A DNA stretch of 43,089 nucleotides, from positions 1 through 43,089 of the forward strand of contig NZ_JAHKRL010000387.1 of NCBI RefSeq assembly GCF_019396405.1, written 5' to 3'. This document shows, one piece after another, positions 20,890 to 35,861 of this stretch (position 1 is its first letter; every line of letters starts with the position of its first letter). Under the pieces are notes generated by a model. The model ran no database searches. It had not been told where the DNA came from and saw only the letters and a program-made list of their open reading frames with translations. The stretch comes from Nonomuraea rhizosphaerae (GTDB taxonomy: Bacteria > Actinomycetota > Actinomycetes > Streptosporangiales > Streptosporangiaceae). Made by a program: the position numbers and the translations under genes.

Positions 20890-22329
20890 ATGGTCGCGGA
20901 CATGAGGGGCTTCTACGAGATCGCCACCGCCGACCCCGGACGCCCCGCTCTGCTGGGCCCTGGCGGCGTGACGTACGGCGAGCTGCTCCACCGCGTCCAC
21001 CAGGCATCCAACGGCCTGGTCGAACGCGGGGTACGGCCGGGCGACGCCGTGGTGACCGTGCTCAGGAACGGGCTCGACGCCCTGACGACGATGCTCGCGA
21101 CGTACCAGATCGGGGCCTACCTGGTGCCGGTGAACTGGCACTTCACGGCGGACGAGATCGGCTACATCGTGGCGGACTGCGGCGCGAGGGCGGTGATCGC
21201 GCCCGGCTCGCTGACGGTCGCCGACCTCGTCGCCGGACAGCCGGGGGACCCGCCGGCGCACCGGCGGGCCGGGTCGATGATGCTCTACACCTCGGGCACC
21301 ACCGGCCGTCCCAAGGGCGTGCGCAGGCGGCTGCTGGACCTGTCGCCGGAGGAGCTGTACCCGATCCTGGAGCGCAAGAGCTGGCGGCACTTCCGGCTGC
21401 CGTCCGGCGGGGTGCACCTGGTGTGCTCGCAGCTCTACCACTCGGCCCCGTACGGGCAGGCGATGATGGCGCTGCAGCTCGGGCACTCGGTCGTCGCGCC
21501 CGAGCGGTTCGACGCGGCCGGGACGCTGGCGCTGGTCGAGCGGTACCGGGTGACGAACGCGTTCATGGTGCCCACGATGTTCCACCGGCTGCTGGCCGTG
21601 CCGGAGCGGGAGTCGTACGACCTGTCGTCGATCACCCACCTCTACCACGGCGCGGCGCCGTGCCCGCCCGCGACCAAGCAGGCGATGATCGACTGGCTCG
21701 GCCCGGTGCTGTGGGAGTACTACGGCTCCACCGAGGCGGCGGTGGCCACCATGGTCTCCTCCCAGGAGTGGCTGGCCAGGCCGGGCACGGTCGGCAGGGC
21801 GCTGGACGGGATGGCGTTCACGATCGTCGGCGAGGACGGCGAGGAGGTCGCCCCCGGCGAGCCGGGACTGGTCTACATCGGCGGCGTGAACCGCTTCGAG
21901 TACCACGGCGACCCCGGCAAGACGGCGGCCTCCATGCGCGGCCGCGCCTACACCCCCGGCGACATCGGCTACCTGGACGACGAGGGCTACCTGTTCCTGC
22001 TCGACCGCAGGACCGACCTGATCATCTCCGGCGGCGTGAACATCTACCCCGCCGAGATCGAGGCCGCCCTCCTCGAGCACCCCTCCGTGGCCGACGTCGC
22101 CGTCATCGGCGTGCCCGACCCCGAGTGGGGCCAGCGGGTGGTGGCGCTCGTCCAGCCCGCGACCGGGGCCGAGACCGGCGGGCTGGCGGCCGAGCTGCTG
22201 CGGCACTGCGAGCCCCGGCTGGCCAAGCTCAAGCATCCGCGCGTCATCGAGCTGCGCGACGCGCTGCCGCGCACACCCACCGGCAAACTCAGCAGACGGT
22301 CGGTTCGGGAGGCGTATCTTTCCAGGTGA
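20890..22329 (+). CDS. Acyl-CoA synthetase (AMP-forming), second copy
   Basis: A 479-residue ANL-family enzyme, shorter than the first copy. The phosphate loop [11 protein letters not shown] is at 133-143, [10 protein letters not shown] at about 274-283, [21 protein letters not shown] at 356-376, NIYPAEIE at 384-391 and the catalytic lysine in RTPTGK at 466. It shares many blocks with the 170-1720 enzyme (for example [17 protein letters not shown]), so they are related paralogues. Two starts are possible, ATG 20890 or ATG 20902; neither has a clear ribosome-binding site and a leaderless start is possible. It is divergent from the Pro/Gln-rich membrane protein and followed after 18 bases by a protease gene that is functionally unrelated. 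Substrate unknown. Confidence 0.88.
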
Positions 22330-22347
22330 GCGGGGCAGATACCCTGC

Positions 22348-23439
22348 ATGAGCAAGATCGCCGCAGGGATCGCCGCCGGTGTGCTGGTGGCCGGATGCGC
22401 CTCGCAGGGGCCCGCCACCATGGCCGGCCCGGCGTCGCCGGCGCCCGCCACGACCACCGGCCCGGCCTCCCCCGCGCCCTCCGCCGGCGCCAGCTCGCCG
22501 GTGGCGGTCCAGCCGCTGGAGCAGACGTACGAGCTGGTCATCAAGCGGGTCCTGCCGTCGATCGTGCAGATCACCACCAAGGTGGGGCTCGGCTCGGGCA
22601 TCGTGTACGACTCGGCGGGCCACGTCCTCACGAACGCGCACGTCGTGGGCCAGGCGACCCAGATGAACGTGACGCTGGCCACCGGCAGCGCCCCGCGCAC
22701 CGCCCGCCTCGTCAAGACCTTCAGCGGCGGCGACCTGGCCGTCGTCAAGGTGGACGATCCCAAGGGGCTGACGCCGGCCAGGTTCGGCGACTCCTCGCAG
22801 CTGCGGGTGGGGCAGTTCGTCCTGGCCATGGGCAACCCGCTGGGGCTGTCCGGCAGCGTCACCGACGGCATCATCTCCGCGCTGGGCCGTACGGTCAGCG
22901 AGCCGCAGGCCCCCGACTCCCCCGGCGCGACGATCAGCGGCGCCATCCAGACGTCGGCGGCCATCAACCCCGGCAACAGCGGCGGCGCGCTGGTCGACAT
23001 GTCCGGGCAGGTCATCGGCATCCCCACGCTCGCCGCCACGGACCCCGACCTCGGCGGCGGGGCCGCACCGGGCATCGGGTTCGCGATCCCGAGCAACACC
23101 GCCACGGACATCGCCGCTCAGATCGTGCGCGACGGCAAGGTCACCAACAGCCACCGGGCCGCGCTCGGCATCCGGGGGAGCACGGTGATCGGCAGCGACG
23201 GCAAGCCGACCGGGGCCGGGGTGGCCAAGGTCGACAAGGGCAGCGCCGCCGAGAAGGCGGGGATCCGGGCCGGCGACGTGATCGTCTCGATCAACGGGAA
23301 GGAGACGGCGACCATGTCGGAGCTGGCCGAGGTGCTGACGACGCTGCGTCCGGGGCAGCAGGCCAAGGTGGAGATCGTCCGGTCGGACGGCGGCCGCAGG
23401 ACGGTCACCGTGACCCTGGGCACCCTGCCGGGCGACTGA
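22348..23439 (+). CDS. HtrA/DegP-like S1C serine protease lipoprotein
   Basis: A 363-residue exported trypsin-like protease. The first 17 residues form a lipoprotein signal with lipobox VAGC (C17), followed by an Ala/Pro/Ser/Thr-rich linker to about 50. The catalytic triad is complete: H98 in TNAHVVG, D129 in GGDLAVVKVD and S211 in NPGNSGGAL. A PDZ domain occupies about 270-355 (GVAKVDKGSAAEKAGIRAGDVIVSINGKE). Members degrade or refold damaged envelope proteins, and the lipid anchor would hold it on the outer face of the membrane. Most actinobacterial HtrA proteins have an N-terminal membrane span rather than a lipobox. It starts 18 bases after the acyl-CoA synthetase and converges on the OmpA gene with an 11-base gap. 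Confidence 0.9.
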   Translation: MSKIAAGIAAGVLVAGCASQGPATMAGPASPAPATTTGPASPAPSAGASSPVAVQPLEQTYELVIKRVLPSIVQITTKVGLGSGIVYDSAGHVLTNAHVVGQATQMNVTLATGSAPRTARLVKTFSGGDLAVVKVDDPKGLTPARFGDSSQLRVGQFVLAMGNPLGLSGSVTDGIISALGRTVSEPQAPDSPGATISGAIQTSAAINPGNSGGALVDMSGQVIGIPTLAATDPDLGGGAAPGIGFAIPSNTATDIAAQIVRDGKVTNSHRAALGIRGSTVIGSDGKPTGAGVAKVDKGSAAEKAGIRAGDVIVSINGKETATMSELAEVLTTLRPGQQAKVEIVRSDGGRRTVTVTLGTLPGD

Positions 23440-23450
23440 CCCGCCTGTTC

Positions 23451-23987
23451 CTACTGCTTCACCTTGAAGATGATCTCCACCCGGCGGTTCTTGGCGCGGT
23501 TCGCGGCGACGGGCCGGCCGTCGACGAGGTTGGGGGCCTTGGGGCGGCTCTCGCCGTAGCCCTTCGACTGAAGGGTGGTGTTCGCGCCGGTCAGCAGCCC
23601 CCTGACCGCCTGTTGCACGGCCTGCGCGCGGCGCAGCGACAGCGTGTTGTTGTAGGCGTCGGCGCCCTGGTCGTCGGTGTGGCCCTCGACCCGGACCACG
23701 CCCCCCGCGCCCTCCTCGTTGATCTTCGCGGCCACGTCCCGGAGCCGCTGCCTGGCCTTGGCGGTCAGCACCCACTTGTCCACCGCGAACAGCACGTCGC
23801 TGGTCAGCGCCACCGTCACCTGCTGCCCCCGCTTGGTCTCGCTCTCGGTGCCGTCGAGCGACTCGACCTCGCCGATGATGTCCTCGACCGGCAGGACGAG
23901 GTCCTCCACGACGCCGGTGGCGTTCTGCGGCGGGGCGGGCGTCGGGGACAGGGCCAGTGCCAGCGCGACGCTAAGAGATCGGAACAT
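23451..23987 (-). CDS. Exported OmpA-domain protein
   Basis: A 178-residue protein with a short N-terminal hydrophobic signal (MFRSLSVALALALSPTPAPP), a linker and a C-terminal OmpA/MotB domain (about 60-178). The peptidoglycan-binding signature is clear: LTAKARQRLRDVAAKI, VRVEGHTDDQGADAYNNTLSLRRAQAVQ, and NRAKNRRVEIIF, with the D and R that grip diaminopimelate. The ATG lies inside the end of the preceding lipoprotein gene (17-base overlap), so the two are coupled. The domain would bind the cell wall. OmpA-like domains are unusual but known in monoderm actinobacteria, where they link envelope proteins to peptidoglycan. No outer-membrane barrel is present. Confidence 0.88.
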   Translation of the reverse strand: MFRSLSVALALALSPTPAPPQNATGVVEDLVLPVEDIIGEVESLDGTESETKRGQQVTVALTSDVLFAVDKWVLTAKARQRLRDVAAKINEEGAGGVVRVEGHTDDQGADAYNNTLSLRRAQAVQQAVRGLLTGANTTLQSKGYGESRPKAPNLVDGRPVAANRAKNRRVEIIFKVKQ

Positions 23988-24612
23988 CGGTGAACACGCC
24001 CATCATCGGCATCTCGACATTGATCTTCGTGACGTCAGGAGGCGGGGCGGCGAAGACGGCGTAGAGCGTGGCGGCGTCGCCCTTGTCGAGGAACTGGCCC
24101 TGGGTGTCGGAGCAGACGCACTCGGCGCTGTCGCCGGTGCCGTTGCGCGCCACGCGGTAGCGCTTGGCGTTCACCGGGTCGATCAGGGAGACGGCCGAGA
24201 CGGTGAAGTCGAGCTGGCCCGTGCCCATGCCGTTGTGCAGGCTGATCTTGCCGTCCGTGACGGTGACGGTCCAGTTGAGGCTGATCGTCCTGCCCTGCCG
24301 CTTGAGCACGGTGATGTCGACGCGCGCCCTGCCGGACTCGCCGCCCTTGCCGGTCCTGACCTCCCGGCTCACGATCGCCTTGACCTCCTGGGAAGGCTCG
24401 GTCTGCTGCTCGCCGGGCCTCGTGCTGTCCTCGGCGTCGGCCGTCGGGGCGGCCTCGGTGGCGGTGTCGGCCGCCGGGCTCTCCTGGGTGGCCTGCGTGG
24501 TCTGCTCGGACGCGTTCTGCTTCTCCTCGCCGCCCCCGCCCTGCTGGCCGGGGAGCATGCCGCAGCCGGTCAGCGCGACGGCCGCGACAGCCAACGCGAT
24601 CGTCTTTCGCAT
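23971..24612 (-). CDS. Secreted lipoprotein paired with the OmpA-domain protein
   Basis: A 213-residue lipoprotein: signal MRKTIALAVAAVALTGC with lipobox LTGC (C17), then a low-complexity stretch rich in Gly, Gln, Glu, Ala and Thr (20-75), then a beta-rich domain of about 135 residues (REVRTGKGGESGRARVDITVLKRQGRTISLNWTVT...). Two cysteines in AECVCSD (about 165) could form a disulphide or bind metal. The ATG has AAAGGTG about 8 bases upstream. It overlaps the OmpA-domain gene by 17 bases, so the two probably act together at the cell wall. I do not recognise the C-terminal domain family. Confidence 0.82.
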   Translation of the reverse strand: MRKTIALAVAAVALTGCGMLPGQQGGGGEEKQNASEQTTQATQESPAADTATEAAPTADAEDSTRPGEQQTEPSQEVKAIVSREVRTGKGGESGRARVDITVLKRQGRTISLNWTVTVTDGKISLHNGMGTGQLDFTVSAVSLIDPVNAKRYRVARNGTGDSAECVCSDTQGQFLDKGDAATLYAVFAAPPPDVTKINVEMPMMGVFTDVPIS

Positions 24613-24679
24613 GATGTGATCACCTTTGTCGCTGGGATGGAACTTCGCGGCCCGACGCTAGCCGGACGACCTTCAGAAT

Positions 24680-24750
24680 CCGCATAGTCGGCTATGCGGG
24701 CAGATCGGCCTGCGGGGCCAGAGTCAGCCTGCGCGGCCGGGACAGGCCGA
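24680..24750. terminator. Hairpins between SARP regulator 1 and the lipoprotein gene
   Basis: A perfect hairpin has arms CCGCATAG (24680-24687) and CTATGCGG (24692-24699) around TCGG. A wider inverted repeat TCGGCCTG (24705-24712) / CAGGCCGA (24743-24750) lies next to it. Both are within the 146-base gap downstream of the regulator and upstream of the lipoprotein start. They could terminate the regulator transcript, or the first could be an operator for the lipoprotein gene. No T-run follows. Confidence 0.45.
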
Positions 24751-24758
24751 CTGCCAGG

Positions 24759-27626
24759 TCAGCCCGCCGGCAAGCCACGGCGTCTGCGCGCCTCCTGCGC
24801 GAGCCGCTCCGCCTCGGCGCGCCCTTGCTCGTCACCGAGGCTGTCAAACTCTCCCATAACTCGTGTAACGCTCTCAACCGCCGCATCAACCTCATCAAGG
24901 TCGAGATGCGCTCTAGCTTGGACAATCAGGGCGTACGCGGCACCGCGCCGATCACCGTGCGCCTCGAAGGTCTCCCCCGCCTGCTCCGCCATTCTGACGG
25001 CGACCTCCGGAGCGCCCTCCGCCGCCGCCACCCTGGCCAGCACCAGCAGCCCCGCCGCCTCCGGCAGCCGATCGCCGAGCCGCCCGCTGATCCTGACCCG
25101 CCGCTCGGCGCACTCCCTCGCCCGCGCCAGCTCCCCGGCGTCATGGTGCCGCTCGGCCAGGTCGAGGTGCAGCCGGGCCAGGTCGAGCAACGCCTCGGCC
25201 TCACCGCGCGGGTCCCCCAGCTCGCCGTACGCCGTCAGGCTCCGCTCCAGCAGCACCAGATCCCCGCGTACGGCCCCCAGCGCCCTGAGCGCGTCGGCCC
25301 TGCCCCGCCGGTCCCCCGCCTCCTCGAACACCGTCAAGCACCGCACCAACGCCCGCTCCGCCTCGACCGGCCGCCGCTCGACCAGCCCCAGCCTGAGCAT
25401 GATCCGGGCCAGCTCCACCCCCTCCACCAGCGGCTGCGCGGCCCGCAACGCGGCGGCGGCGGCCTCGTGCCGCCCCTCCGCCCGGTGCAGGTCGGCCAGC
25501 CCGCGCAGCAGCAACGCCTCCCCCTCCCGGTGCCCCGCCGCCCGGGCCGCGTCCAGGCCGGTCGCCGTGGTGGCGTGCCAGTCGTCGTGATGGGCGCCCA
25601 GCTCGAACAGGGGCGTCAGGTAGAACGCCAGCCGCCACGCCGCCTCGTGCAGCCCGGCCCGGTGGAAGTCGGTGACGGTCGCCACCAGGAACCGCCGCTC
25701 GGCGCTCAGCCACCGCGCGTCGTCCCGCAGCCGCCCGGTCGTTCCCGCGTCGTGGAGGTGCTCCTCCGTCCGGGCCAGGGTCCGGCCGGAGCCGGGCTCG
25801 GCGGGGAGGAGGGCGGTGCGGGCGTGCCTGGTCCTGTCGAGGATCTCGCCCGCGATCCCGGCCAGCACCGCGCCCGGCCCTCCGTCCTCGGCGGCAAGGC
25901 GTTCGGCGGCGTAGAGCCTGGTCAGGTCGTGCCAGCCGTACCGTTCGCCGCCCGCCTCGTCCAGGCCGAGCGACTGGAGCAGCCCCGCCTCCGCCAGCGG
26001 CTCCAGCTCGGCCCCGAACGGCCAGGACGCGAAGTCGGGCGCCGACAGCGCCCCGAGCCTGCGCAGCAGCAGCCGCTCGGGGCCGGCCAGCCCGTCGTAG
26101 CCGAGCGCCAGGCTCCCGCGTACGGCCAGGTCGCCCGCGCTCAGCTCGTCCAGCCGTCGCCGCTCGTCGCCCAGCCGTCCCGCCAGGTGGGCGAGCGTCC
26201 ACCCCGGCTTCCTGGCCAGCCGGGACCCGGCGATCCGCAGCGCCAGCGGCAACGCGCCGCACAGCCGCACGATGCGCAGCGCCGCCTCGGGCTCGGCGGC
26301 GACCCGCTCGCGCCCGGCGACCTCGGCCAGCATGGCGACGGCCTCGTCCGCCTCGAACACCCCCAGCTCGTACGCCCTGGCCGCCTCCAGCCCCGCCAGC
26401 GGCGAACGGCTCGTCACCAACGTCACGCTGCCCGGCCCGGTGGGGAGCAGCGGCCGCACCTGTCCTTCGTCGGTGGCGTCGTCGAGCACGAGCACCAGGC
26501 GCCGGCCGGCGGTCATCCGGCGGTAGAGGCGGACCCGCTCGCCCAGCTCGGCGGGCACCCCGCCGTCCGGGCAGCCGAGGGAGCGCAGCAGGTCCTCCAG
26601 CACCGCTCCCGGCGGCCGGTCCCGCAGCGACGCGTACAGACGACCGCCGGGCAGGTCGAGCACGGTGGCGGCGCGGATCGCCACGGCCGACTTCCCGCAC
26701 CCGGGCGGCCCGTGGACGACGAGGTGGACGGGCGCGTCGTGCCGCTGAGCGGGGGTCTGCCCGTGCGTCGCCGCCCTCTCGTCCCGGCTCGCGGCTTCTC
26801 TCCGGTGAGGGGCGTTCGCGGTGATCCAGGCGAGGACGGCCACCCGGCCCGTGAAGTCGGAAATATCGGGCGGCGTCTCGTTTATGGGCATGCTGGACGG
26901 CGGCGCCTCGCTCGACAGCACCCGTTGATGCGCCTCGACCAGCTCGGCCCCCGGCTCCAGGCCCAGCTCGTCCACCAGCACCCGGCGGGCCTCCCGGTAC
27001 GCCTCCAGCGCCTCGGCCCTGCGCCCGGCCTGGCCCAGCGCGTCGAGCAGCAGCCCCCACGCCCGCTCCCGCAGCGGGTAGGCCGCCACGAGCGCCCGCA
27101 GCTCGCCGACCACCTCACCGCCCCTGCCCAGCCGCAGGTCCAGCCGCACCCGCTCCTCCAGCGCGGTCAGCCGCAGCTCCTCCAGGGGGACGCCCCACGT
27201 CCTGCGCAGGTACGGGGACTCGACGCCGGCCAGCGCCTCCCCGCGCCACAGCGCCAACGCCTGCCTCAGCTCGTCGGCGGCGACCTCGTCCCGGCCCGCG
27301 TCCCTGGCCCGCCGGGCCTGTCCCACCAGCCGCTCGAACCGGTGGCAGTCCACCTCGTCCGGCTCGACCGCGATCAGGTACCCGCCGGGGACGGTCCTGA
27401 TGCCGTCGACCAGCTTCCGCAACGCGCTGACGTACACCCGCAGCACCGGCTCCGCCGACGCCGGCGGCCGGTCGTCCCACACCACGGCCATCAGCCGCTC
27501 GATCGGCACCACCCGCCCGGCGGAGACCAGCAGCGCGGCCAGCACCGCCCGGTGCTTCGCCGGGCCGGGGCCGGGGCCGCCATCGGCCTGCAACGGCCCG
27601 AGCATCCGGAACCGCAACGGCTTCAT
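24759..27626 (-). CDS. AfsR/SARP-type regulator with NB-ARC ATPase and TPR domains (regulator 1)
   Basis: A 955-residue regulator. An OmpR-like winged-helix DNA-binding domain (about 12-88) is followed by the bacterial transcriptional activator domain (95-240), a linker, an NB-ARC-type ATPase with Walker A GPPGCGKS (306-313) and Walker B RLVLVLDD (376-383), and a helical TPR-like region from about 600 to the end. This is the AfsR layout; such proteins bind direct repeats near -35 boxes and recruit RNA polymerase, with ATP binding and kinase phosphorylation as switches. The ATG start gives the usual MKPLRFRMLGPL beginning; the ribosome-binding site is weak. It lies 50 bases downstream of kinase 1 on the same strand, so the kinase is a natural partner. 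Target genes are unknown. Confidence 0.88.
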   Translation of the reverse strand: MKPLRFRMLGPLQADGGPGPGPAKHRAVLAALLVSAGRVVPIERLMAVVWDDRPPASAEPVLRVYVSALRKLVDGIRTVPGGYLIAVEPDEVDCHRFERLVGQARRARDAGRDEVAADELRQALALWRGEALAGVESPYLRRTWGVPLEELRLTALEERVRLDLRLGRGGEVVGELRALVAAYPLRERAWGLLLDALGQAGRRAEALEAYREARRVLVDELGLEPGAELVEAHQRVLSSEAPPSSMPINETPPDISDFTGRVAVLAWITANAPHRREAASRDERAATHGQTPAQRHDAPVHLVVHGPPGCGKSAVAIRAATVLDLPGGRLYASLRDRPPGAVLEDLLRSLGCPDGGVPAELGERVRLYRRMTAGRRLVLVLDDATDEGQVRPLLPTGPGSVTLVTSRSPLAGLEAARAYELGVFEADEAVAMLAEVAGRERVAAEPEAALRIVRLCGALPLALRIAGSRLARKPGWTLAHLAGRLGDERRRLDELSAGDLAVRGSLALGYDGLAGPERLLLRRLGALSAPDFASWPFGAELEPLAEAGLLQSLGLDEAGGERYGWHDLTRLYAAERLAAEDGGPGAVLAGIAGEILDRTRHARTALLPAEPGSGRTLARTEEHLHDAGTTGRLRDDARWLSAERRFLVATVTDFHRAGLHEAAWRLAFYLTPLFELGAHHDDWHATTATGLDAARAAGHREGEALLLRGLADLHRAEGRHEAAAAALRAAQPLVEGVELARIMLRLGLVERRPVEAERALVRCLTVFEEAGDRRGRADALRALGAVRGDLVLLERSLTAYGELGDPRGEAEALLDLARLHLDLAERHHDAGELARARECAERRVRISGRLGDRLPEAAGLLVLARVAAAEGAPEVAVRMAEQAGETFEAHGDRRGAAYALIVQARAHLDLDEVDAAVESVTRVMGEFDSLGDEQGRAEAERLAQEARRRRGLPAG

Positions 27627-27676
27627 CGACGCCGCCCGGCGGGTCGCGTGGTGCTCGACGGCTCCATGCGCGCCAC

Positions 27677-29308
27677 TCAGCTCTTCGTGCGGGCGATCGT
27701 GAACGACTCGAAGCGTACGCGCAGCGACTCCTTGGTGTCGGGGGCCGCGTGCACCCCGGCCTCACCGGTCCCGAGCGGGTCACCACCGTCGGTCACCTCG
27801 GCGACGAGACGGTCGTCGACCCACATCCGGAGCGCCACCCGACCGGCGTCGCCGCCGCCGCACTCGGCGACGATCCGCTCGTACCCCGTCGATCCCTTGA
27901 TCGCCGCCGGGCCGTACAAGGGCGTGCCCTTCTGCCCGGCACGGCGCTTGACGATCGTGGCGCGGCCCGCGCCGTTCACCCCGAACTCGTAGCGGTCACC
28001 TGAGCCGGTCGAGCCGTGGCACCAGACGCCGTAGTCGCCGGAGCCCTGTTCGAGCCGGGCCCGCGCGGTGACCAGCACGCCGCCGTCCGGCTCGCTCCTG
28101 GGCGCCGACTTCCACAGCCGCCAGCCCGGCTCAGCGGTCAGCACGTAACCGGTCCCCACGACCCGCGCGTTCCCGCCGCCGGAGGTTCCCGTCGCCCACG
28201 AGTCGGCGAACTTCGCGTCGTACGGCCACCGCTCGGCCAGGACCTGAGGCACCACGACCACCCCCACGGCGAGCGCGACGACCAGCCCGGCCGCCCCGGC
28301 CACCCACGGCCACCGCCGCCGCACTTTGGGAGCAATCGGCACATCAGCGCCCATCTGCGGTGCTCGTCGCACGTCGGCGCCCTGCTGCGGAGCGGGCCGC
28401 ACGGACGGGGCAGGCCGTACCGGGGTGGCGTCCGTGGCCGGCAGGCCCGGCCCCGTCCACGTGCGCTCCACCACCTCCGTTGCCGAGGCGGGGCTGAGCC
28501 GACGTCCGCCCATCAGCGACTCCAGGAGCTGCTGAGCCGTCGGCCGCAGCCGCGCGTCCTTGGCCAGGGCCCGCTCGACCACCTCCCGCAGCCCTTCGTC
28601 GAGCCCGTCGAGCCGCGGCCCCTCGTTGACGATCCGGTACAGCACCTCGGCGGGAGCCCCGCCCCCGAACACCAGCCGCCCGGTCCCGGCGAACGCGATC
28701 ACCCCGCCCCACGCCCACACGTCCGCCGCGGGGCCGAGCGGCTCGCCGCGCACCTGTTCGGGCGCCATGAACGCGGGCGTGCCCAGGATCGACTGGCTGA
28801 CCACGCTGTCGCTGTCGACGAGCCGCGCGATGCCGAAGTCGATCACGCGCGGGCCGAGGGGGGACAGCAGCACGTTCGACGGCTTGAGGTCGCGGTGCAC
28901 GACTCCGGCGCCGTGGATGGCGGCCAGGGCCGTGGCGATGCCGACGGCCAGCGCCTCCAGGTCGGATCCTGACAAAGGCCCGCGTTCGCGTACGGCCTGC
29001 GCCAGATCCGGTCCCTTCACGTACTCGGTGACGAGATAGGCGACATCCCCGTCCATCCCCGCGTCCAGCACGGGAGCGGTACAGAAGCGGGCGACCCGCC
29101 GCGCGGCGGCGACCTCCCGCTCGAACCGCCGCCGGAACGCCGGGTCCCTGGCCAGCGACGGATGGATCACCTTGACCGCGGCCAGGCCACCGGCAGGCGT
29201 GGTGGCCAGGTGCACCTCGCCCATGCCGCCCCGGCCGAGGACGCGCCGCAGCACGTACCCGCCGACGACCCGCTCACCGCTCACCGCAGACACACTAGCC
29301 CCAGTCAT
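27677..29308 (-). CDS. Membrane Ser/Thr protein kinase 1
   Basis: A 543-residue Hanks-type kinase. The glycine loop GRGGMGEVH is at 25-33, the ATP lysine K46 in AAVKVIH, the catalytic loop VVHRDLKPSN (136-145, D140), DFG at 157-159 and the APE-like MAPE at 181-184. A Pro-rich linker leads to a single span (about 335-355) and an extracytoplasmic domain of about 185 residues. That domain has two cysteines (C430 in VWCHG, C483 in AECGG) and looks like a beta-sandwich sensor (DYGVWCHGSTGSGDRYEFGVNG). The ATG overlaps the regulator 2 stop (ATGA). It likely senses an envelope signal and phosphorylates one or both SARP regulators beside it, which is inferred from AfsK/AfsR. Confidence 0.9.
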   Translation of the reverse strand: MTGASVSAVSGERVVGGYVLRRVLGRGGMGEVHLATTPAGGLAAVKVIHPSLARDPAFRRRFEREVAAARRVARFCTAPVLDAGMDGDVAYLVTEYVKGPDLAQAVRERGPLSGSDLEALAVGIATALAAIHGAGVVHRDLKPSNVLLSPLGPRVIDFGIARLVDSDSVVSQSILGTPAFMAPEQVRGEPLGPAADVWAWGGVIAFAGTGRLVFGGGAPAEVLYRIVNEGPRLDGLDEGLREVVERALAKDARLRPTAQQLLESLMGGRRLSPASATEVVERTWTGPGLPATDATPVRPAPSVRPAPQQGADVRRAPQMGADVPIAPKVRRRWPWVAGAAGLVVALAVGVVVVPQVLAERWPYDAKFADSWATGTSGGGNARVVGTGYVLTAEPGWRLWKSAPRSEPDGGVLVTARARLEQGSGDYGVWCHGSTGSGDRYEFGVNGAGRATIVKRRAGQKGTPLYGPAAIKGSTGYERIVAECGGGDAGRVALRMWVDDRLVAEVTDGGDPLGTGEAGVHAAPDTKESLRVRFESFTIARTKS

Positions 29309-32300
29309 CCCGGCTGACCTGGGGTCGCCAGCAGGTCGTCCTGGCCGAGCGAGCCGCCCTGTTCGTACGCCTTCGCGAACGCCGCCTCCCCCAGCGCGGC
29401 CCTGGCCATGGCCGACACCCTGGCCACGTCCCGGTTGCCCGCCAGCGCCGTCCCGCGCCAGGCCCGGCCCGCCCCCAGGAGCGCGGCGGCGCGCTCGTAC
29501 GCGCCCGTCAAGGCCGCCGCCCCCGCCAGCCCCTCGACCGCCAGCGCCACGAGCGGCCGGCTGCGCAGCTCGAACGCCCGCCGCAACGCCTCCCGCTGCA
29601 GCTCGGCCGCCCGAGCCGGGTCGCCGTCCTGAGCGGCGATCCACCCCAGCCCGATCAGCACCCGCACACCACCGAGATCGGCCCCGAACGACCCACCATC
29701 AGCGGAGACGACCGCACGAGTCCCGAACGCCCCGCCATCGGCGGCAACGACCGCGGCCTTTTCCGACAGGAGCCCCTCGTACGCCCGCCGCGCCCCCTCC
29801 CCGTCCCCCGACAGCCGAGCCACCTCGGCCAGCCCGTGCCGCGCCCGAGCGGCCGCCTCCAGCGCCCCCACCCGGCGAGCCAGGTCGAGCGCCTCCTCGT
29901 ACCCGGGCCGGGCCGCCGCCGGCTCGCCCAGCAGCAGGATGCCGTCGGCGCGGCGGCACAGCAGGTCGGCCCGGTCCTCCACGGCCCCCAGCTCGTCCGC
30001 CAGCCGGATCGCCTCCGACATCAGCGCCTCGAACCGCGTCCGGTCGCCGCGCCACGCCACCAGCTCGGCCAGCTCGGCGAGTGACGTGAGCAGCCCCCAC
30101 CGCTCCCCGAGCGCGCGGAAGCTCTCCAGCGCCAGCTCGAACGACCGCTCGGCCGCCACCACGTCCCCCGCCACCATCTGGGCGAGCACGCCGCGCCCGA
30201 CGTGGTCGAGCCCCTGCCGCCACGGGCCTTCGCCGGGACGGACGTGTTCCGTCATGGCGTCGCGGAGGTCGGCCTCCACCGGCCCGGCGAAGGTCGCCCA
30301 GAGGAAGACGAGCTGCGGGCGGTCGGCGACGAGGTCCGCCGAGACCATGAGCGCGGTGGCCGTCCGTACGTGCTCCCGCAGGTCGAGGCCGCCGCCGTGG
30401 ACGGCGCTCAGGACGCACAGCACGTACTCGCCGGCCAGTTCCGGGGGCGGCGAGGCGCCGACGGCGGCCAGCAGCGCGCGGGCGGGCGCCACCCCCTCCG
30501 TACGGCGTCCGCGCAGCCACCAGTACGTGGTCAGGTCCGCGACCAGCCGCAGCCCCAGCGCGGGATCGGCGTGGCGGAGCGCGGTGAGCAGATTGTCGTG
30601 CTCGGCGTCGAGCCGGGCCAGCCATTCCAGTTGCTCGGCGCGCAGCAGATGCGGCGCGGCCGTCGCCATGAGCGCCTGGAAGTGCGCGGCGTGCGCCGAG
30701 CGCAGCCGCGCGGTCTCGCCGGCCTCCTCCAGCCGTTCGGCGCAGAAGGCGTGGACGGTGCGCAGCATCCGGTAGCGGTCGCCAGCCACCTCGACCAGCG
30801 ACTTGTCGGCCAGCCCGGCCAGCGCCCCGACCGTGTCGGCGACCCCGCACACGGCCTCGATCGACTCCAGCCGGGCCCCTCCGGGGAACACGCTCAGCCT
30901 CCTGGCCAGCCGCTGTTCCTCCGCCTCCAGCAGGTCCCAGCTCCACGAGACCAGCGCGCGCAACGTCCTGTGCCGCGGCCCCGCCGTGCGGCTCCCCCTG
31001 GACAGCAGCCCGAACGCGTCGTCCAGCCGCGCCGCGACCTCGCCCACCGGCAGCGACCTGAGCCGGGCGGCGGCCAGCTCGATGGCCAGCGGCAGCCCGT
31101 CGAGCGCCCGGCAGATCCGCAGCACGTCCGAGGCGTTGGCGTCGTCGACCACGAACCCGGGGCGCACGGCGGCCGCCCGGTCCGCGAACAGCCGCACGGC
31201 GGCGGCGGACAGCGGCGCGGCGTCCGGGGACGGCAGCTCCAGCGGCGCGACGGGAAGGAGCGCCTCGCCGGTTATCCCGAGCGCCTCCCTGCTCGTGGCC
31301 AGGACGCGCAGCTCGGGGCAGGCGCCCAGCAGCCGGTGGACCAGGGCCGCCGCGTCGTCCACGACGTGCTCGCAGTTGTCGAGGACGATCAGCGCCGGCC
31401 GGTCGGACAGCGCCGCGACGAGCCGTTCGCGCGGGCCGCGCTGCTCGGTGGACAGGAGGCCGTCGCGCAGGCCCAGCGCGGCCAGCACGGCCTGCGCCAC
31501 GTCGCCGCCCTCGGGCAGCTCGCCCAGCTCCACGAACGCGGACCCGCCCGGCCGCCGCGCGGTCGCCTCTATGGCGAGCCGGGTCTTGCCCGCCCCTCCC
31601 GGCCCGATCAGCGTGACCAGCCGGGACGAGGCGAGCCGCTCGGCGATCGCGCTCATCTCCGCTCGCCTGCCCACGAAGCTGGTCAACTGGGACGGCGCCC
31701 CGCGCGGGACGATCAGCGCCTCCCGAACGACCGGCAACTCGTGGGAGACCGGCAGCTCGCGGGAGACCGGCAGCTCGTGGGAGACCGGCAGCTCGCCCCG
31801 GAGCACGGCCAGGTGCACGGACGCCAGCTCCGGCGACGGATCCACCCCCAGCTCCTCCGCCAGAACGGCCCGGGCCTCCTCATAGGCGCTCAGAGCCTCG
31901 CTCTGCCGCCCACTCCCGTACAGAGCCCGCATGAGCTGCCCGCGCGGCCGCTCCCGCACCGGGTGGGCCGCGACCAGCTCCCGCAGCTCGCCGACCAGCT
32001 CGCGGTGCCGGCCCAGGGCCAGCTCGGCCTCGATCCGCTCCTCGGTGACGTCGAGCCGCAGCTCCTCCAGCCGCGTGACCTGCCCCTCCGCGAACGGAGC
32101 GGCGCGTACGTCCGCCAGCGCCGGCCCCCTCCACAGCCCGAGCGCCCGCCCGAGCAGCCCGGCCCGCTCCACCGGGGTCGCGGCGGCCTTGCCCTCATGC
32201 GCCAGCCGCTGGAAGACCAGCGCGTCCACCTCGCCGGGGTCCACGGCCAGCCGGTACCCGGCGGGGTGGAACTCCACGGGCGCGTCCGTCCCGAGCCCCC

Positions 32301-32508
32301 GGCGCAGGCGGGAGACCTGAGACTGCAGGGCGTTCACGGCACCGGAGGAGTCGCCGTACAGGCCGTCGATCAGGCGTTCGGCGGTGACGATCCGGCCGGC
32401 GTCGAGGAGCAGCAGGGCCAGCAGCGCCCGCAGCCGTGGCCCGCCGGTCGCCATGGGGCTGCCGTCGGCCCGGCGCGCCTCAAGGGGACCGAGTATCCGA
32501 AACCGCAC
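29305..32508 (-). CDS. AfsR/SARP-type regulator with AAA/NB-ARC ATPase domain (regulator 2)
   Basis: A 1067-residue regulator: winged helix (about 1-92), bacterial transcriptional activator domain (95-237), a linker with four copies of a six-residue unit (ELPVSH, ELPVSR, ELPVSH, ELPVVR; 239-262), an ATPase with Walker A GPGGAGKT (302-309) and Walker B ALIVLDNCEH (372-381), and a long helical repeat region to the end. The GTG start fits the family N-terminus VRFRILGPLE; a -10-like CACAAT 7 bases upstream suggests a leaderless transcript, and the frame extending to 32553 is not needed. It is coupled to kinase 1. The ATPase part is closer to the LuxR/MalT-like large regulators than that of regulator 1. 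Targets unknown. Confidence 0.88.
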   Translation of the reverse strand: MRFRILGPLEARRADGSPMATGGPRLRALLALLLLDAGRIVTAERLIDGLYGDSSGAVNALQSQVSRLRRGLGTDAPVEFHPAGYRLAVDPGEVDALVFQRLAHEGKAAATPVERAGLLGRALGLWRGPALADVRAAPFAEGQVTRLEELRLDVTEERIEAELALGRHRELVGELRELVAAHPVRERPRGQLMRALYGSGRQSEALSAYEEARAVLAEELGVDPSPELASVHLAVLRGELPVSHELPVSRELPVSHELPVVREALIVPRGAPSQLTSFVGRRAEMSAIAERLASSRLVTLIGPGGAGKTRLAIEATARRPGGSAFVELGELPEGGDVAQAVLAALGLRDGLLSTEQRGPRERLVAALSDRPALIVLDNCEHVVDDAAALVHRLLGACPELRVLATSREALGITGEALLPVAPLELPSPDAAPLSAAAVRLFADRAAAVRPGFVVDDANASDVLRICRALDGLPLAIELAAARLRSLPVGEVAARLDDAFGLLSRGSRTAGPRHRTLRALVSWSWDLLEAEEQRLARRLSVFPGGARLESIEAVCGVADTVGALAGLADKSLVEVAGDRYRMLRTVHAFCAERLEEAGETARLRSAHAAHFQALMATAAPHLLRAEQLEWLARLDAEHDNLLTALRHADPALGLRLVADLTTYWWLRGRRTEGVAPARALLAAVGASPPPELAGEYVLCVLSAVHGGGLDLREHVRTATALMVSADLVADRPQLVFLWATFAGPVEADLRDAMTEHVRPGEGPWRQGLDHVGRGVLAQMVAGDVVAAERSFELALESFRALGERWGLLTSLAELAELVAWRGDRTRFEALMSEAIRLADELGAVEDRADLLCRRADGILLLGEPAAARPGYEEALDLARRVGALEAAARARHGLAEVARLSGDGEGARRAYEGLLSEKAAVVAADGGAFGTRAVVSADGGSFGADLGGVRVLIGLGWIAAQDGDPARAAELQREALRRAFELRSRPLVALAVEGLAGAAALTGAYERAAALLGAGRAWRGTALAGNRDVARVSAMARAALGEAAFAKAYEQGGSLGQDDLLATPGQPG
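31731..31802. repeat. 18-base tandem repeat, four copies, inside regulator 2
   Basis: Units begin at 31731, 31749, 31767 and 31785 with CCGGCA(A/G)CTCG, followed by TGGGAGA or CGGGAGA; the fourth is diverged after the first 11 bases. They encode the ELPVSx linker repeats between the activator domain and the ATPase. Exact in-frame period points to recent copy-number change by slippage. Confidence 0.8.
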
Positions 32509-32578
32509 GACACCGATTGTGCCCGCCCCGCCGCGACCGGCGGCCACCGTCAACCAGGACCCGCCGATCAGAGCCGGC

Positions 32579-32629
32579 CATCAATCAGGACCGGCCATCA
32601 GTCAGGACCGGCCATCAATCAGGACCGGC
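32579..32629. repeat. 17-base tandem direct repeat upstream of regulator 2
   Basis: Three units of CATCA(A/G)TCAGGACCGGC run at 32579-32595, 32596-32612 and 32613-32629; a degenerate partial copy (GATCAGAGCCGGC) comes just before. They lie 71-121 bases upstream of the regulator 2 start and overlap the 3' end of a possible small membrane peptide gene. SARP proteins bind direct repeats, so autoregulatory sites are possible. The period is not 11 or 22 bases, which weakens this. Confidence 0.65.
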
Positions 32630-32740
32630 CACCATGAGGAACACCGTCAACGCCACGAGCAGCAACAGCACCACACCGACCAGCACCGCCCCGAAAACCA
32701 GCGCCCGCCGGTGCTCCTGGTCCTGTTCCACGGCCGTCAA
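32615..32740 (-). CDS. Possible small single-span membrane peptide
   Basis: An open frame of 41 codons from a TTG (or 38 from a GTG at 32731) encodes TAVEQDQEHRRALVFGAV followed by LVGVVLLLLVALTVFLMV and a short end AGPD. The charged head and 23-residue hydrophobic stretch are typical of a small membrane protein, which is unusual for random high-GC sequence. A GGGTG lies about 7 bases upstream of the TTG. It is on the same strand as its neighbours, 33 bases after the nitroreductase stop. No family recognised, so coding is likely but not certain. Confidence 0.45.
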   Translation of the reverse strand: MTAVEQDQEHRRALVFGAVLVGVVLLLLVALTVFLMVAGPD

Positions 32741-32773
32741 CCTAACACCCTTGACGGGAGATGTCAGTTTTGG

Positions 32774-33427
32774 TCACGCCCACCGATCGAGGTGCAGCAC
32801 CTCGTCCAGCGGCACGCGCGGGGCGGGCCTGAACGTCTCGCCGGTGTAGTACGCGGTGGGGAGCAGCACGCCCTGCCGGACGTCGTCGGGAATGCCGAGC
32901 AGCTCCGCGATCTCCCGCTCGTACGCCAGGTGCAGCGTCGTCCACGCGGTCCCGAGCCCCCGCGCCCTGGCCGCCAGCATGTAGCTCCAGGCGGCAGGCA
33001 GCAGCGACCCCCACAACGACGCCTGACTGCCCTCGGGCAGCCCGCCGGTGGAGAGCCGGAGGCAGCCGATCACCAGCACCGGCACGTCCCCCATGTGCTC
33101 GGCCAGGTGCAGCGAGCTGTCGGAGACGCGCCGCTGCGTCTCGGCGCGGACCGGGTCGTCCTTGAACAGGCTGGTCGCCGAGGTGCCCGACCGGTAGTAC
33201 GCGTGGAGCGAGCGCTTGTAGTAGTCCCCGATCCTGCCGCGCAGCTCGGGGTCGGTGACCACGATCCAGTGCCAGCCCTGCCGGTTGCTGCCGGTGGGCG
33301 CCTGGAGGGCGATCTCCAGGCATTCGCGGACGAGCTCCATCGGCACGGGACGCTTGAGGTCGAGCCGCTTGCGCACGGTCCGCGTGGTCGTCAGCAGCTC
33401 GTCAGGAGCAAGTGGTTGCTGGGTCAT
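32774..33427 (-). CDS. Nitroreductase-family flavoprotein
   Basis: A 217-residue FMN-dependent nitroreductase-fold protein, expected to reduce nitro compounds or quinones with NAD(P)H. The N-terminal FMN phosphate-binding segment is TTTRTVRKRLDLKRPVP (about 13-29), followed by LQAPTGSNRQGWHWIVV (41-57), the typical APSxxNxQ motif. The C-terminal part has RGLGTAWTTLHLAYEREIAELLGIP (about 155-180), the usual dimer and FMN contact region. The ATG lies 12 bases after the kinase 2 stop, with AGGAGTGA about 13 bases upstream overlapping the kinase end, so the two are cotranscribed. Why a flavoenzyme lies between a kinase and a regulator is unclear. Confidence 0.88.
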   Translation of the reverse strand: MTQQPLAPDELLTTTRTVRKRLDLKRPVPMELVRECLEIALQAPTGSNRQGWHWIVVTDPELRGRIGDYYKRSLHAYYRSGTSATSLFKDDPVRAETQRRVSDSSLHLAEHMGDVPVLVIGCLRLSTGGLPEGSQASLWGSLLPAAWSYMLAARARGLGTAWTTLHLAYEREIAELLGIPDDVRQGVLLPTAYYTGETFRPAPRVPLDEVLHLDRWA

Positions 33428-33439
33428 GCTGCGATGATC

Positions 33440-35014
33440 TCACTCCTGGGCGCTGCGGCCCTCGGTGCGGGCGATGCCGATCGTGCCGGTCGATCCGCGC
33501 AGGCCGAACCCGTACCGGTACTGCTGCCGCGCCTGCGGAGTGCCGAGCACGTCCCCGATGGCGGCCGTTCCCAGGCGGCGCCACGTGCCGCCGCTCTCGG
33601 CGTACGAGGTGATCCTGTCGCCGGACAGTTGCAGCGCGAAGCGGTCGCCCGGCTTGAGGGTCAGCGGCGACGAGCCGGGCGTGCTGACGAACGCGCCGTC
33701 CACCCGCACCTCAAGGCCCGATTCCTTGCGGGTGTGGTTGTACCAGGCGGTCACGTAGCTCTCGCCGTTCTTGACCCAGCCGACGAAGAGACTGTCCTCG
33801 AACTGCCCGCTCCCCGCGAACGCGCCCGCGGTCAGCACGCTGACGGCCGCGCCGGACGGCGGCAGGGCGCCCGGCCCGGCGACCAGGCCGAAGTACGGCG
33901 TGGTGCCGGTCGCCGCGTACGTCCCCTGGCCGGCCTTGATCGCGGGCACGGCCTCGCCGCTGTGCGGCTGGTAGGCGGCGTACCGGCCGGAGGTGTCCTC
34001 GGCGAACCGGTCGTCCACGTCGACCCGCGGGAAGGAGGCCAGGTCGAACCCCTTGGCGACCGGCTGCTCCGCCGCCGTCAACCGGGGCACGTACAGCACC
34101 CCGGCCGTCACGGCCAGAGCCGCGGCGACGGCCACGGCGGCGAGCGCCGGCCACCGTCCGCGCCCGCGCCTGGCGGGCCGCCGTTCGATGATCGTGGGGC
34201 CGCCCGACGGCGTCTGGCCGGTGAGGTCGCGCAGCAGGTGCGCGGCGCGGGGCCGCGCGTTCGGGTCCTTGGACAGGCACGCGGCCACCAGGCTCCGCAG
34301 CGGCTCCGGCACCCCGGACACGTCGGGCTCGGCGGACAGGATGGCGTGCAGGACGGCCGGCACGGCGGCCCCGCGGAACGGCGTGTGTCCCGTGGCCGCG
34401 AACACCATCGTCCCTGCCCAGGCGAACATGTCGGACGCGGCGCTCACCGCCTGGTCGGTGAGCTGTTCGGGCGACATGTACGCGGGCGTCCCCGCGACGT
34501 GGGCGTGGCTGGTCATGTGGTCGAGCGCCCTGGCGATCCCGAAGTCGATCACCACCGGCCCCTCGGGGCCCAGGATCACGTTGCCCGGCTTGAAGTCGCG
34601 GTGCACGATCCCGGCCTGGTGGATGGAGGCGAGCGCGGTCAGCGTGCTGACCGCCAGCCGCTCCAGCCCGCTGCCGCTGCGCGGCCCGTCCCTCTTGACC
34701 AGGGCGTCGAGCGAGGGGCCCGGCACGTACTCGCTGACGATGTACGGCCGGTCGCCCAGCATGCCGGTGCCGAGGACCCGGGCCGTGCAGAAGGCGGCGA
34801 CGCTCGCCGCGACCTCCGCCTCGCGCAGGAACCTCCGCCGCACCTCGGGGTCGGCCGCGAGCCGGGCGTGCAACACCTTGATCGCCACCGGCGCCCGTCC
34901 GGGCGACTCGCCGAGGTAGACCACCCCCTGGCCGCCCTCTCCGAGCAGCGCGGAGATCCGATGGTCACCGATGGTCTTCGGCTCGTCGAACCCCAACGCG
35001 CGAGGAACCGTCAC
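33440..35014 (-). CDS. Membrane Ser/Thr protein kinase 2
   Basis: A 524-residue Hanks-type kinase related to kinase 1. The loop GEGGQGVVYLG is at 25-35, K46 in VAIKVLH, the catalytic loop IVHRDFKPGN (136-145, D140), DFG at 157-159 and YMSPEQ at 179-184. A single span (about 289-311) leads to an extracytoplasmic domain of about 210 residues that resembles a lectin or laminin-G-like sandwich (FEDSLFVGWVKNGESYVTAWYNH, LEVRVDGAF, FALQLSGDRITSYAESGG). The GTG at 35014 gives the usual distance to the kinase domain; a GTG at 35044 in frame has GGAGGG directly against it with no spacing. Kinase 2 and the nitroreductase are separated from regulator 2 by the small-peptide frame. It likely senses an envelope ligand. 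Confidence 0.87.
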   Translation of the reverse strand: MTVPRALGFDEPKTIGDHRISALLGEGGQGVVYLGESPGRAPVAIKVLHARLAADPEVRRRFLREAEVAASVAAFCTARVLGTGMLGDRPYIVSEYVPGPSLDALVKRDGPRSGSGLERLAVSTLTALASIHQAGIVHRDFKPGNVILGPEGPVVIDFGIARALDHMTSHAHVAGTPAYMSPEQLTDQAVSAASDMFAWAGTMVFAATGHTPFRGAAVPAVLHAILSAEPDVSGVPEPLRSLVAACLSKDPNARPRAAHLLRDLTGQTPSGGPTIIERRPARRGRGRWPALAAVAVAAALAVTAGVLYVPRLTAAEQPVAKGFDLASFPRVDVDDRFAEDTSGRYAAYQPHSGEAVPAIKAGQGTYAATGTTPYFGLVAGPGALPPSGAAVSVLTAGAFAGSGQFEDSLFVGWVKNGESYVTAWYNHTRKESGLEVRVDGAFVSTPGSSPLTLKPGDRFALQLSGDRITSYAESGGTWRRLGTAAIGDVLGTPQARQQYRYGFGLRGSTGTIGIARTEGRSAQE

Positions 35015-35153: not shown

Positions 35154-35861
35154 TCAGCCAAGGCGGCGCAGATGACGAGGGCTCACGTCGCCCACCGGGA
35201 GCAACATGAAGAAGTCGGCGGCCCCGGCGTCCGGGTCGTGCGCGGGCGCCCCGCACACCCACGCCCCCATCCGCAGAAAACCACGCAACAAGGCCGGCGG
35301 CACGAACCGGCCGCCGCCCACCGCCTTCCTCCCGCCCCGCCACGGCCGGCGCGGCGTGACCCGATACTCCTGCGGCCCCAGCCCCACCCGCTTCACCACG
35401 CCGTTCGCGGCCACGCCGCCGTCGCCGAGCGGCACCGGGCAGCGGCCCGCCAGCCACTCGTGCCCGCCGCTCAGCAGGTAGCGCGCGATCCCGGCCCACA
35501 GCAGCGCGACCACGGCTCCGTCCCGGCGGTCGCGGTGAACGCACATGCGCCCGCCCTCCACCAGCCCCTTCCTGATCCCGGCGAGGGCGCCGAGCTCGAA
35601 CGCGCCGTCGGAGAGCAGCCGGTCCGTCCGCCCGGCGGGCAGCAGCCGGCAGGTGGCGACCACCTCCCGGCCCTCGCGGACGACGAGGTGGTCGCAGTAG
35701 GCGTCGAACCTGTCCACGTCGAGACCGGAGACCGGGCTGTCGAGCCGCGCCCCCATCTCCCCGGAGAAGACCTCGTGCCGCAGCCGCTGCGCGGCCTGCA
35801 CGTCCCGGGGACCGACGGCCAGGCCGACGGTGTGACGGCCGGTGTCCAGAGAGATCGTCAT
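35154..35861 (-). CDS. GNAT-fold acyltransferase (OlsB/Acetyltransf_5-like)
   Basis: A 235-residue GNAT-superfamily protein of the Acetyltransf_5 type, the family of ornithine lipid N-acyltransferase OlsB and autoinducer synthases. Visible blocks are QAAQRLRHEVFSGEMGA (about 23-39), DRFDAYCDHLVVREGREVVATCRLLP (about 50-75), and GRMCVHRDRRDGAVVALLWAGIARYLLSGGHEWLAGRCPVPL (about 104-145), matching the family order. The ATG has GGGAAGGA about 9 bases upstream; the longer frame to 35930 is not needed. If it is OlsB-like, it makes lyso-ornithine lipid from 3-hydroxyacyl-ACP, but no OlsA partner lies next to it. Gene stands alone between the kinase and LysR genes. Function tentative. Confidence 0.75.
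   Translation of the reverse strand: MTISLDTGRHTVGLAVGPRDVQAAQRLRHEVFSGEMGARLDSPVSGLDVDRFDAYCDHLVVREGREVVATCRLLPAGRTDRLLSDGAFELGALAGIRKGLVEGGRMCVHRDRRDGAVVALLWAGIARYLLSGGHEWLAGRCPVPLGDGGVAANGVVKRVGLGPQEYRVTPRRPWRGGRKAVGGGRFVPPALLRGFLRMGAWVCGAPAHDPDAGAADFFMLLPVGDVSPRHLRRLG

Follow-up and report, generated by a model that had tools for sequence, protein, structure and literature searches.

A conserved kinase-SARP pair and a 21-bp box suggest an AfsK/AfsR-like cell-envelope switch in Nonomuraea

In the 43,089-nucleotide stretch of Nonomuraea rhizosphaerae DNA analysed here (the window; contig C197 of a 5.9-Mb assembly that is 64% complete), the gene of a membrane Ser/Thr kinase, KinB, stands directly before that of SARP2, an AfsR-like regulator of the SARP type with an NB-ARC ATPase, and the genes of a lipoprotein, LipoP, and of an OmpA-domain protein, OmpA, follow. 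We propose that KinB-SARP2-LipoP-OmpA is the functional unit, an AfsK/AfsR-like cell-envelope switch, and we give this reading a probability of roughly 0.6. Judging from sequence, SARP2 probably switches on LipoP-OmpA through a newly noticed 21-bp box. Antibiotic regulation is the role usually ascribed to SARPs with STAND ATPases, and to our knowledge most SARP-type (BTAD) regulators of the genus, three single-contig genomes of which hold 29-52 BTAD matches each, are without a known target or kinase. For one SARP, this locus supplies a probable kinase and a probable operator of 21 bp, together with a probable target operon and a small number of remote targets. Its genes all lie on the minus strand, in the 5' to 3' order KinA (a second membrane kinase), a nitroreductase gene, a small open reading frame, SARP1 (a second AfsR-like regulator), KinB, SARP2, LipoP and OmpA (Table 1).

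The pairing of KinB with SARP2 was followed through 54 genomes of the genus, the window's included; the site itself was examined in all but G011, and KinB was counted by its outer domain. SARP2 is present in 38 of the 54 genomes (37 by search, and G044 at a contig end), and KinB in 35 of the 53 relatives. With the window's own locus included, SARP2 stands directly behind KinB at 36 of 36 KinB loci, and in the remaining two SARP2 genomes (G004 and G048) the contigs start inside SARP2. Its DNA-binding half is 68-82% identical to that of the window across the 35 relatives' loci showing that half; an apparent replacement of this half in G020 was a split-alignment artefact, the true identity being 79%. 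LipoP and OmpA lie behind SARP2 in every SARP2 genome except G015, and an HtrA-like protease gene behind the module marks the site in 53 of 53 genomes examined. Remnants of loss were found at the site as a KinB fragment in G024 and an OmpA fragment in G025. Adjacency in one genome means little, because about one kinase-SARP pair within 2.5 kb is expected by chance, as a hand calculation for G012 indicates (at least 61 kinase and 29 BTAD matches in 9.1 Mb). The argument thus rests on conservation, and since the KinB-SARP2 adjacency is kept at every KinB locus, it is not a product of chance.

Both kinases carry the motifs by which Hanks-type Ser/Thr kinases, with their characteristic lysine, HRD and DFG residues, are known: HRDLKPSN and DFG in KinB, HRDFKPGN and DFG in KinA, each within a Pkinase domain. 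The initial annotation had assigned them different extracytoplasmic domains, which is true of the sequences (hhalign detected no relation, probability 0.2%) and fails at the level of predicted fold. Neither domain has a Pfam match at E ≤ 1, and the models, with mean pLDDT confidence of 90.5 for KinB and 88.4 for KinA, fall into the same concanavalin-like class. The KinB model matches the CBM66 structure 4azz with Z 20.7 over 156 residues (root-mean-square deviation 2.2), while for KinA the tip protein gp23 of phage TM4 (Z 17.5), CBM66 (Z 17.1) and ERGIC-53 (Z 16.5) are near ties. Two sequences with odd tails (L020 and L037) were omitted from the KinB fold alignment and L046, which at 37% was scored as a relative and not as an orthologue, was included; L060, a repeat of L027, was omitted from that of KinA. 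We conclude that both outer domains are predicted lectin-like jelly rolls, a fold which alone is no proof of sugar binding.

A link between the kinase and the lipoprotein is suggested by gene fusions. The C-terminal domain of LipoP (about residues 95-213), for which Pfam gave no match, also occurs outside LipoP: in G004, G009, G012, G022 and G023 it makes up the outer part of KinB-like kinases, whose kinase domains are 58-63% identical to that of KinB (tblastn E 9e-22 to 2e-15). A weak LipoP match inside a kinase frame of G013 was not recovered by tblastn. These fusions suggest a joint role of LipoP and KinB-type kinases, and they point to what a KinB-type kinase may sense. Because they suggest such a partnership, a closed loop may also be considered, in which LipoP would be the extracytoplasmic partner or ligand of its SARP's kinase, in a phospho-relay of the AfsK/AfsR type that would serve envelope homeostasis instead of antibiotic control and would also govern a few OmpA-domain lipoprotein genes at remote sites; we regard this extension as possible, if still short of probable.

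In the proposed switch, the lectin-like outer domain of KinB would probably bind cell-wall glycan or LipoP, and its kinase domain would change the state of SARP2, presumably by phosphorylation. SARP2 would then bind the LipoP promoter at the 21-bp box, across its -35 region and spacer, and help RNA polymerase to start transcription of LipoP-OmpA; in some species it may also turn on OmpA-domain lipoproteins elsewhere. The products would act at the envelope, where OmpA, going by its family, presumably binds peptidoglycan, and they might feed back on KinB. SARP2 could instead be controlled by a ligand of its TPR/NOD part and by ATP, with KinB merely co-inherited or acting elsewhere at the envelope. 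AfsR provides the precedent: in the portions of PMC10936776 consulted, ATP binding activates it, and phosphorylation, which hardly alters activation in vitro, works against ATP. Yet KinB and SARP2 adjoin at all 36 loci, and the LipoP domain is linked to KinB-like kinases by gene fusion; we therefore hold this alternative to be unlikely.

The box, CTATGCGGATTCTGAAGGTCG, emerged from the aligned regions upstream of LipoP as the block (A/G)CTATGCGGATCCTGAAGGTCG, after which about six bases and then TAnnnT follow. For AfsR, the accessible part of the same source (PMC10936776) describes a 22-bp afs box that extends from -40 to -19, is centred at -29.5 and overlaps a poor -35 element; if transcription starts 7 nt after our predicted -10 element, the register of the 21-bp box would equal that of the afs box. 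Behind SARP2 the box is found in 38 of 38 genomes at ≤5 mismatches, in 37 at ≤4 and in 36 at ≤3, and the next gene is LipoP in 37 of the 38 (G015 has lost LipoP-OmpA there). No box precedes LipoP in any of the seven LipoP-bearing genomes that are devoid of SARP2 at ≤5 mismatches in the locus, and none occurs at ≤3 anywhere in these genomes. In G052 the region upstream of LipoP keeps a decayed SARP2 3' end together with a damaged box. A scan of all 54 genomes at ≤3 mismatches returned 50 matches, 36 behind SARP2 and 14 elsewhere, against 4 for the reversed-pattern control. Four of these 14 precede lipoprotein genes, one (G026:C1) precedes a short, soon-stopping frame and nine are without such a gene; nine or ten of the 14 look like chance. 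The locus scan at ≤5 mismatches gave three further chance-like matches (L048, L056 and the plus strand of the window).

In four SARP2-bearing genomes, G014, G015, G017 and G042, the start of the remote box lies 41-60 nt upstream of a lipoprotein gene. The gene in G015 encodes a LipoP-like lipoprotein and the other three a lipoprotein of about 395 residues. The G014 form of the latter carries an OmpA domain at its C-terminus (E 1.3e-17), and those of G017 and G042 align with it over almost the full length at 74% and 71% identity. This lipoprotein-OmpA gene occurs in 5 of the 54 genomes, all SARP2-bearing, and is preceded by a box at ≤3 mismatches in three of them; in G016 the gene contains an in-frame stop and its box has 4 mismatches. 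For SARP2, the earlier suggestion that the targets of the regulators may be remote is for the most part incorrect: the neighbouring LipoP-OmpA pair is its most probable target, and the box recurs at a few lipoprotein genes elsewhere.

It is also conceivable, if improbable to a greater degree, that the box is another regulator's site, or an own promoter travelling with SARP2. The binding by SARP2 that we propose is read from the DNA, the direct repeats of the box are weak, and a second constrained word in the SARP2 3' end makes the region complex. Against this stand the seven SARP2-less genomes, none with a box before LipoP, the possibly afs-box-like placement, and the confinement of the four remote lipoprotein boxes to SARP2-bearing genomes. 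The second word, around ATGGGAGAGTTTGAC, lies inside the coding end of SARP2 and is constrained at the codon level. Two rare codons are nearly fixed there across the genus: Phe is encoded by TTT in 26 of 27 cases (16 of 410 elsewhere in the gene), and Gly by GGA in 25 of 25 (260 of 3668 elsewhere), counted over 32 genes. These remained from 38 loci after four without a match at ≤4 mismatches and two short frames were dropped; as the loci were picked by the word match itself, the counts are slightly biased towards the codons found. At ≤3 mismatches the word gave 48 matches, 36 at the locus and 12 elsewhere (all at 3), with 3 for the reversed control. An exact copy lies 5' of LipoP in the SARP2-less G052, with looser copies in G022, G029, G033 and G035, and by eye the word partly resembles the box (CTATGnG, TGA, GGTC). 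The word may be a further regulatory element, or a remnant.

Several observations weigh against the switch proposed for KinB-SARP2-LipoP-OmpA. LipoP-OmpA is kept without KinB-SARP2 in the seven genomes mentioned, and so can be expressed and used without them. No SARP neighbour was found within the 8-10 kb examined around each of the LipoP-domain kinases, and no box (≤7 mismatches) precedes the lipoprotein-OmpA gene of G012. Three box-like matches at 3 mismatches lie over open frames in the SARP2-less genomes G013 (two) and G025 (one). The losses amount to three supported independent contrasts on the gene tree, five in all, numbers too low for a sign test to reach significance (p 0.25); moreover, box presence was entered from scans in which it coincides with SARP2, so that the agreement is given. 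As an 11-bp direct repeat the box scores 3.2 of 7 matches at offset 11, and when the repeat is placed freely, offset 9 gives a better fit (4.1 of 7). Finally, because phosphorylation counteracts ATP in AfsR, KinB may damp SARP2 rather than activate it.

According to the initial annotation, one strand encodes two membrane Ser/Thr kinases as well as two AfsR-like SARP ATPases, an ATGA overlap joins the end of SARP1 to the start of KinB, and 50 bp separate the KinB stop from the SARP2 ATG; these details and the coordinates are correct. From them it drew a double relay, in which KinA and KinB would feed SARP1 and SARP2 with cross-talk and be selected as one unit; we find this very doubtful, even with the ATGA coupling, with a four-gene run that recurs unbroken in G043 and broken in G020, and with the precedent of AfsR, which is phosphorylated by AfsK, AfsL and PkaG according to the sections of PMC10972967 available, because all four genes occur at only 3 of the 36 KinB loci. 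These three are the window, G043 and G020 (with about 5 kb between KinA and SARP1), and the proposed gene order is thus rare without being unique to the strain. SARP1 precedes KinB at 5 of the 36 loci (the window, G001, G020, G034 and G043) and is missing from the other 31; KinA lies upstream at four (the window, G005, G020 and G043), in G005 without SARP1. In G003 and G032 SARP1 occupies the same site without KinB-SARP2, and no kinase match was seen in the stretches examined. Nine further KinA orthologues elsewhere lack any same-strand SARP or KinB neighbour; near one of them, in G042, a SARP-like gene lies about 5 kb off on the other strand. Of the SARP1-like loci, 1 of 79 in named actinomycete genomes had a kinase match in the flank examined, about 8 kb away. 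On a tree of the neighbouring protease, a single protein with 16 of 50 inner branches open, SARP2 changes state 11 times and SARP1 five times. We conclude that the four big genes are separable, that KinB was never found without SARP2, and that SARP1, KinA and KinB-SARP2 were gained or lost separately, so that a conserved double relay as the general state is rejected. What stood of the suggested kinase-to-regulator relay is the KinB/SARP2 partnership. KinA, the nitroreductase gene, the small frame and SARP1 are an upstream addition in a few genomes (the window's clade), with SARP1 also present in a few others; the coupling of this addition to KinB-SARP2 is hypothetical.

The closest known system is AfsK-AfsR-afsS of Streptomyces coelicolor, in which, as far as the consulted part of PMC10936776 describes it, a Ser/Thr kinase gene likewise lies near that of a SARP-NOD-TPR activator, and AfsR has its 22-bp box over the -35 element and spacer of the target promoter. 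AfsK, however, is two genes away (PMC10936776), whereas KinB adjoins SARP2; the outer domain of KinB is ConA/CBM66-like, the proposed targets are lipoprotein and OmpA genes rather than afsS, and the box is unlike the CGTT(T/C)ATCGNN given in the portion of PMC10972967 seen. The AfsR equivalog NF053617 (cut-off 1430) is missed by SARP2 (421.2 bits) and SARP1 (214.8 bits), and the AfsK equivalog NF053615 (cut-off 1300) by KinB (203.3 bits) and KinA (207.5 bits), which match in the kinase domain only. By the NCBIfam cut-offs, then, neither SARP is AfsR and neither kinase is AfsK, although they may work like that pair. In size and N-terminal domain order SARP1 and SARP2 resemble the large SARPs (SARP-NB-ARC-TPR, about 1000 residues), as outlined in what we saw of PMC10972967. 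SARP2 passes the Pfam cut-offs for Trans_reg_C (29.6 bits), BTAD (144.3) and NB-ARC (33.9) and on this sequence evidence fits that class, with its TPR below the cut-off: TPR_12 scores 22.8 bits in SARP2 and 27.6 in SARP1, against 30.1. SARP1 is above cut-off for BTAD (E 4.7e-46) and Trans_reg_C (E 4.7e-08), below it for NB-ARC (20.9 bits against 23.5) and level with it for AAA_22 (27 against 27). A further difference from the large SARPs is that no biosynthetic cluster is present among the genes scanned (about 19.6-37 kb), as the initial annotation had noted. KinA and KinB share the kinase-transmembrane-outer domain layout of those bacterial Ser/Thr kinases that bear an extracytoplasmic sensor, for example PASTA; the outer domains of KinA and KinB, in contrast, are without Pfam match and predicted to be lectin-like jelly rolls. 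No title on such a module was noticed among those listed on AfsK/AfsR, on SARPs or AfsR with OmpA or on Nonomuraea kinases, few subscription papers being covered.

Table 1. Features of the locus in 5' to 3' order (positions in the window; Pfam scans of KinA, KinB and SARP1 were run on the longest frames)
Feature	Position	Strand	Remarks
KinA, membrane Ser/Thr kinase, 524 aa	33440..35014	-	Pkinase E 4.5e-37; GTG start as in the initial annotation; kinase domain, one predicted transmembrane segment, ConA-like extracytoplasmic domain; most hydrophobic stretch at residues 291-309
Nitroreductase-family gene	32774..33427	-	Between KinA and SARP1; Pfam Nitroreductase E 2.9e-22
Small open reading frame, 38 codons plus stop	32615..32731	-	Between KinA and SARP1; one predicted transmembrane segment
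SARP1, AfsR-like SARP with STAND-type ATPase part, 1067 aa	29305..32508	-	Start set by homology
KinB, membrane Ser/Thr kinase, 543 aa	27677..29308	-	Pkinase E 6.6e-40; CBM66/ConA-like extracytoplasmic domain
SARP2, AfsR-like SARP with NB-ARC ATPase, 955 aa	24759..27626	-	BTAD E 4.6e-42; NB-ARC E 2.6e-08
Distal DNA word	24841..24860	-	Inside SARP2 3' coding end
21-bp box, proposed SARP2 operator of LipoP-OmpA	24667..24687	-	Conserved in aligned upstream regions
Proposed -10 element TAGCGT (predicted)	24655..24660	-	6 nt after box; sequence reading, TAnnnT kept in alignment
LipoP, 213-aa lipoprotein	23971..24612	-	LPAM_1 20 bits, equal to cut-off; ATG at 24612
OmpA-domain protein	23451..23987	-	Overlaps LipoP end; Pfam OmpA E 9.9e-13

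The initial annotation passed over the nitroreductase gene, the small frame, LipoP and OmpA. A relative of the nitroreductase (78%) stands immediately 5' of KinB in G008, and a loose tblastn search (E up to 10) found a 60% match to the small frame between KinA and KinB in G005. Between the small frame and SARP1 (about 32560-32630, minus strand) we recognised by eye about three tandem 18-bp units TGATGGCCGGTCCTGAyT. These were not apparent in the aligned SARP1 upstream regions of G020 or G043, and no conserved motif was recognised 5' of SARP1 in the alignment of seven genomes. The module converges with plus-strand genes of an AMP-binding ligase and of the HtrA-like trypsin/PDZ protease (20890-23439); an acyl-CoA-ligase-like gene is present somewhere in 43 of the 54 genomes. 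On the other side, 5' of KinA, lies a minus-strand GNAT gene of the OlsB/autoinducer-synthase-like type (35154-35861; Acetyltransf_5 E 3.5e-24).

Related genes also occur near the site in other arrangements. G016 has a shorter SARP-like gene, about 43% identical to SARP1, which ends 2 kb before KinB, and in G003 a fragment of a SARP2-like ATPase (34%) lies at a distance of about 8 kb from SARP1. In G029, G033 and G035, which have no SARP2, an ATPase gene that resembles the central part of SARP1 (43-44%) and has no match to the SARP1 DNA-binding part ends about 1.8 kb before LipoP. In G040 the opposite strand encodes a KinB-like kinase at a distance of about 5-6 kb from LipoP. G028 holds a second, diverged LipoP-OmpA pair (40% and 45% identity; L166 4613-4966, minus strand), and in G034 and G001 two LipoP copies are found, one on each side of OmpA (L024 and L025).

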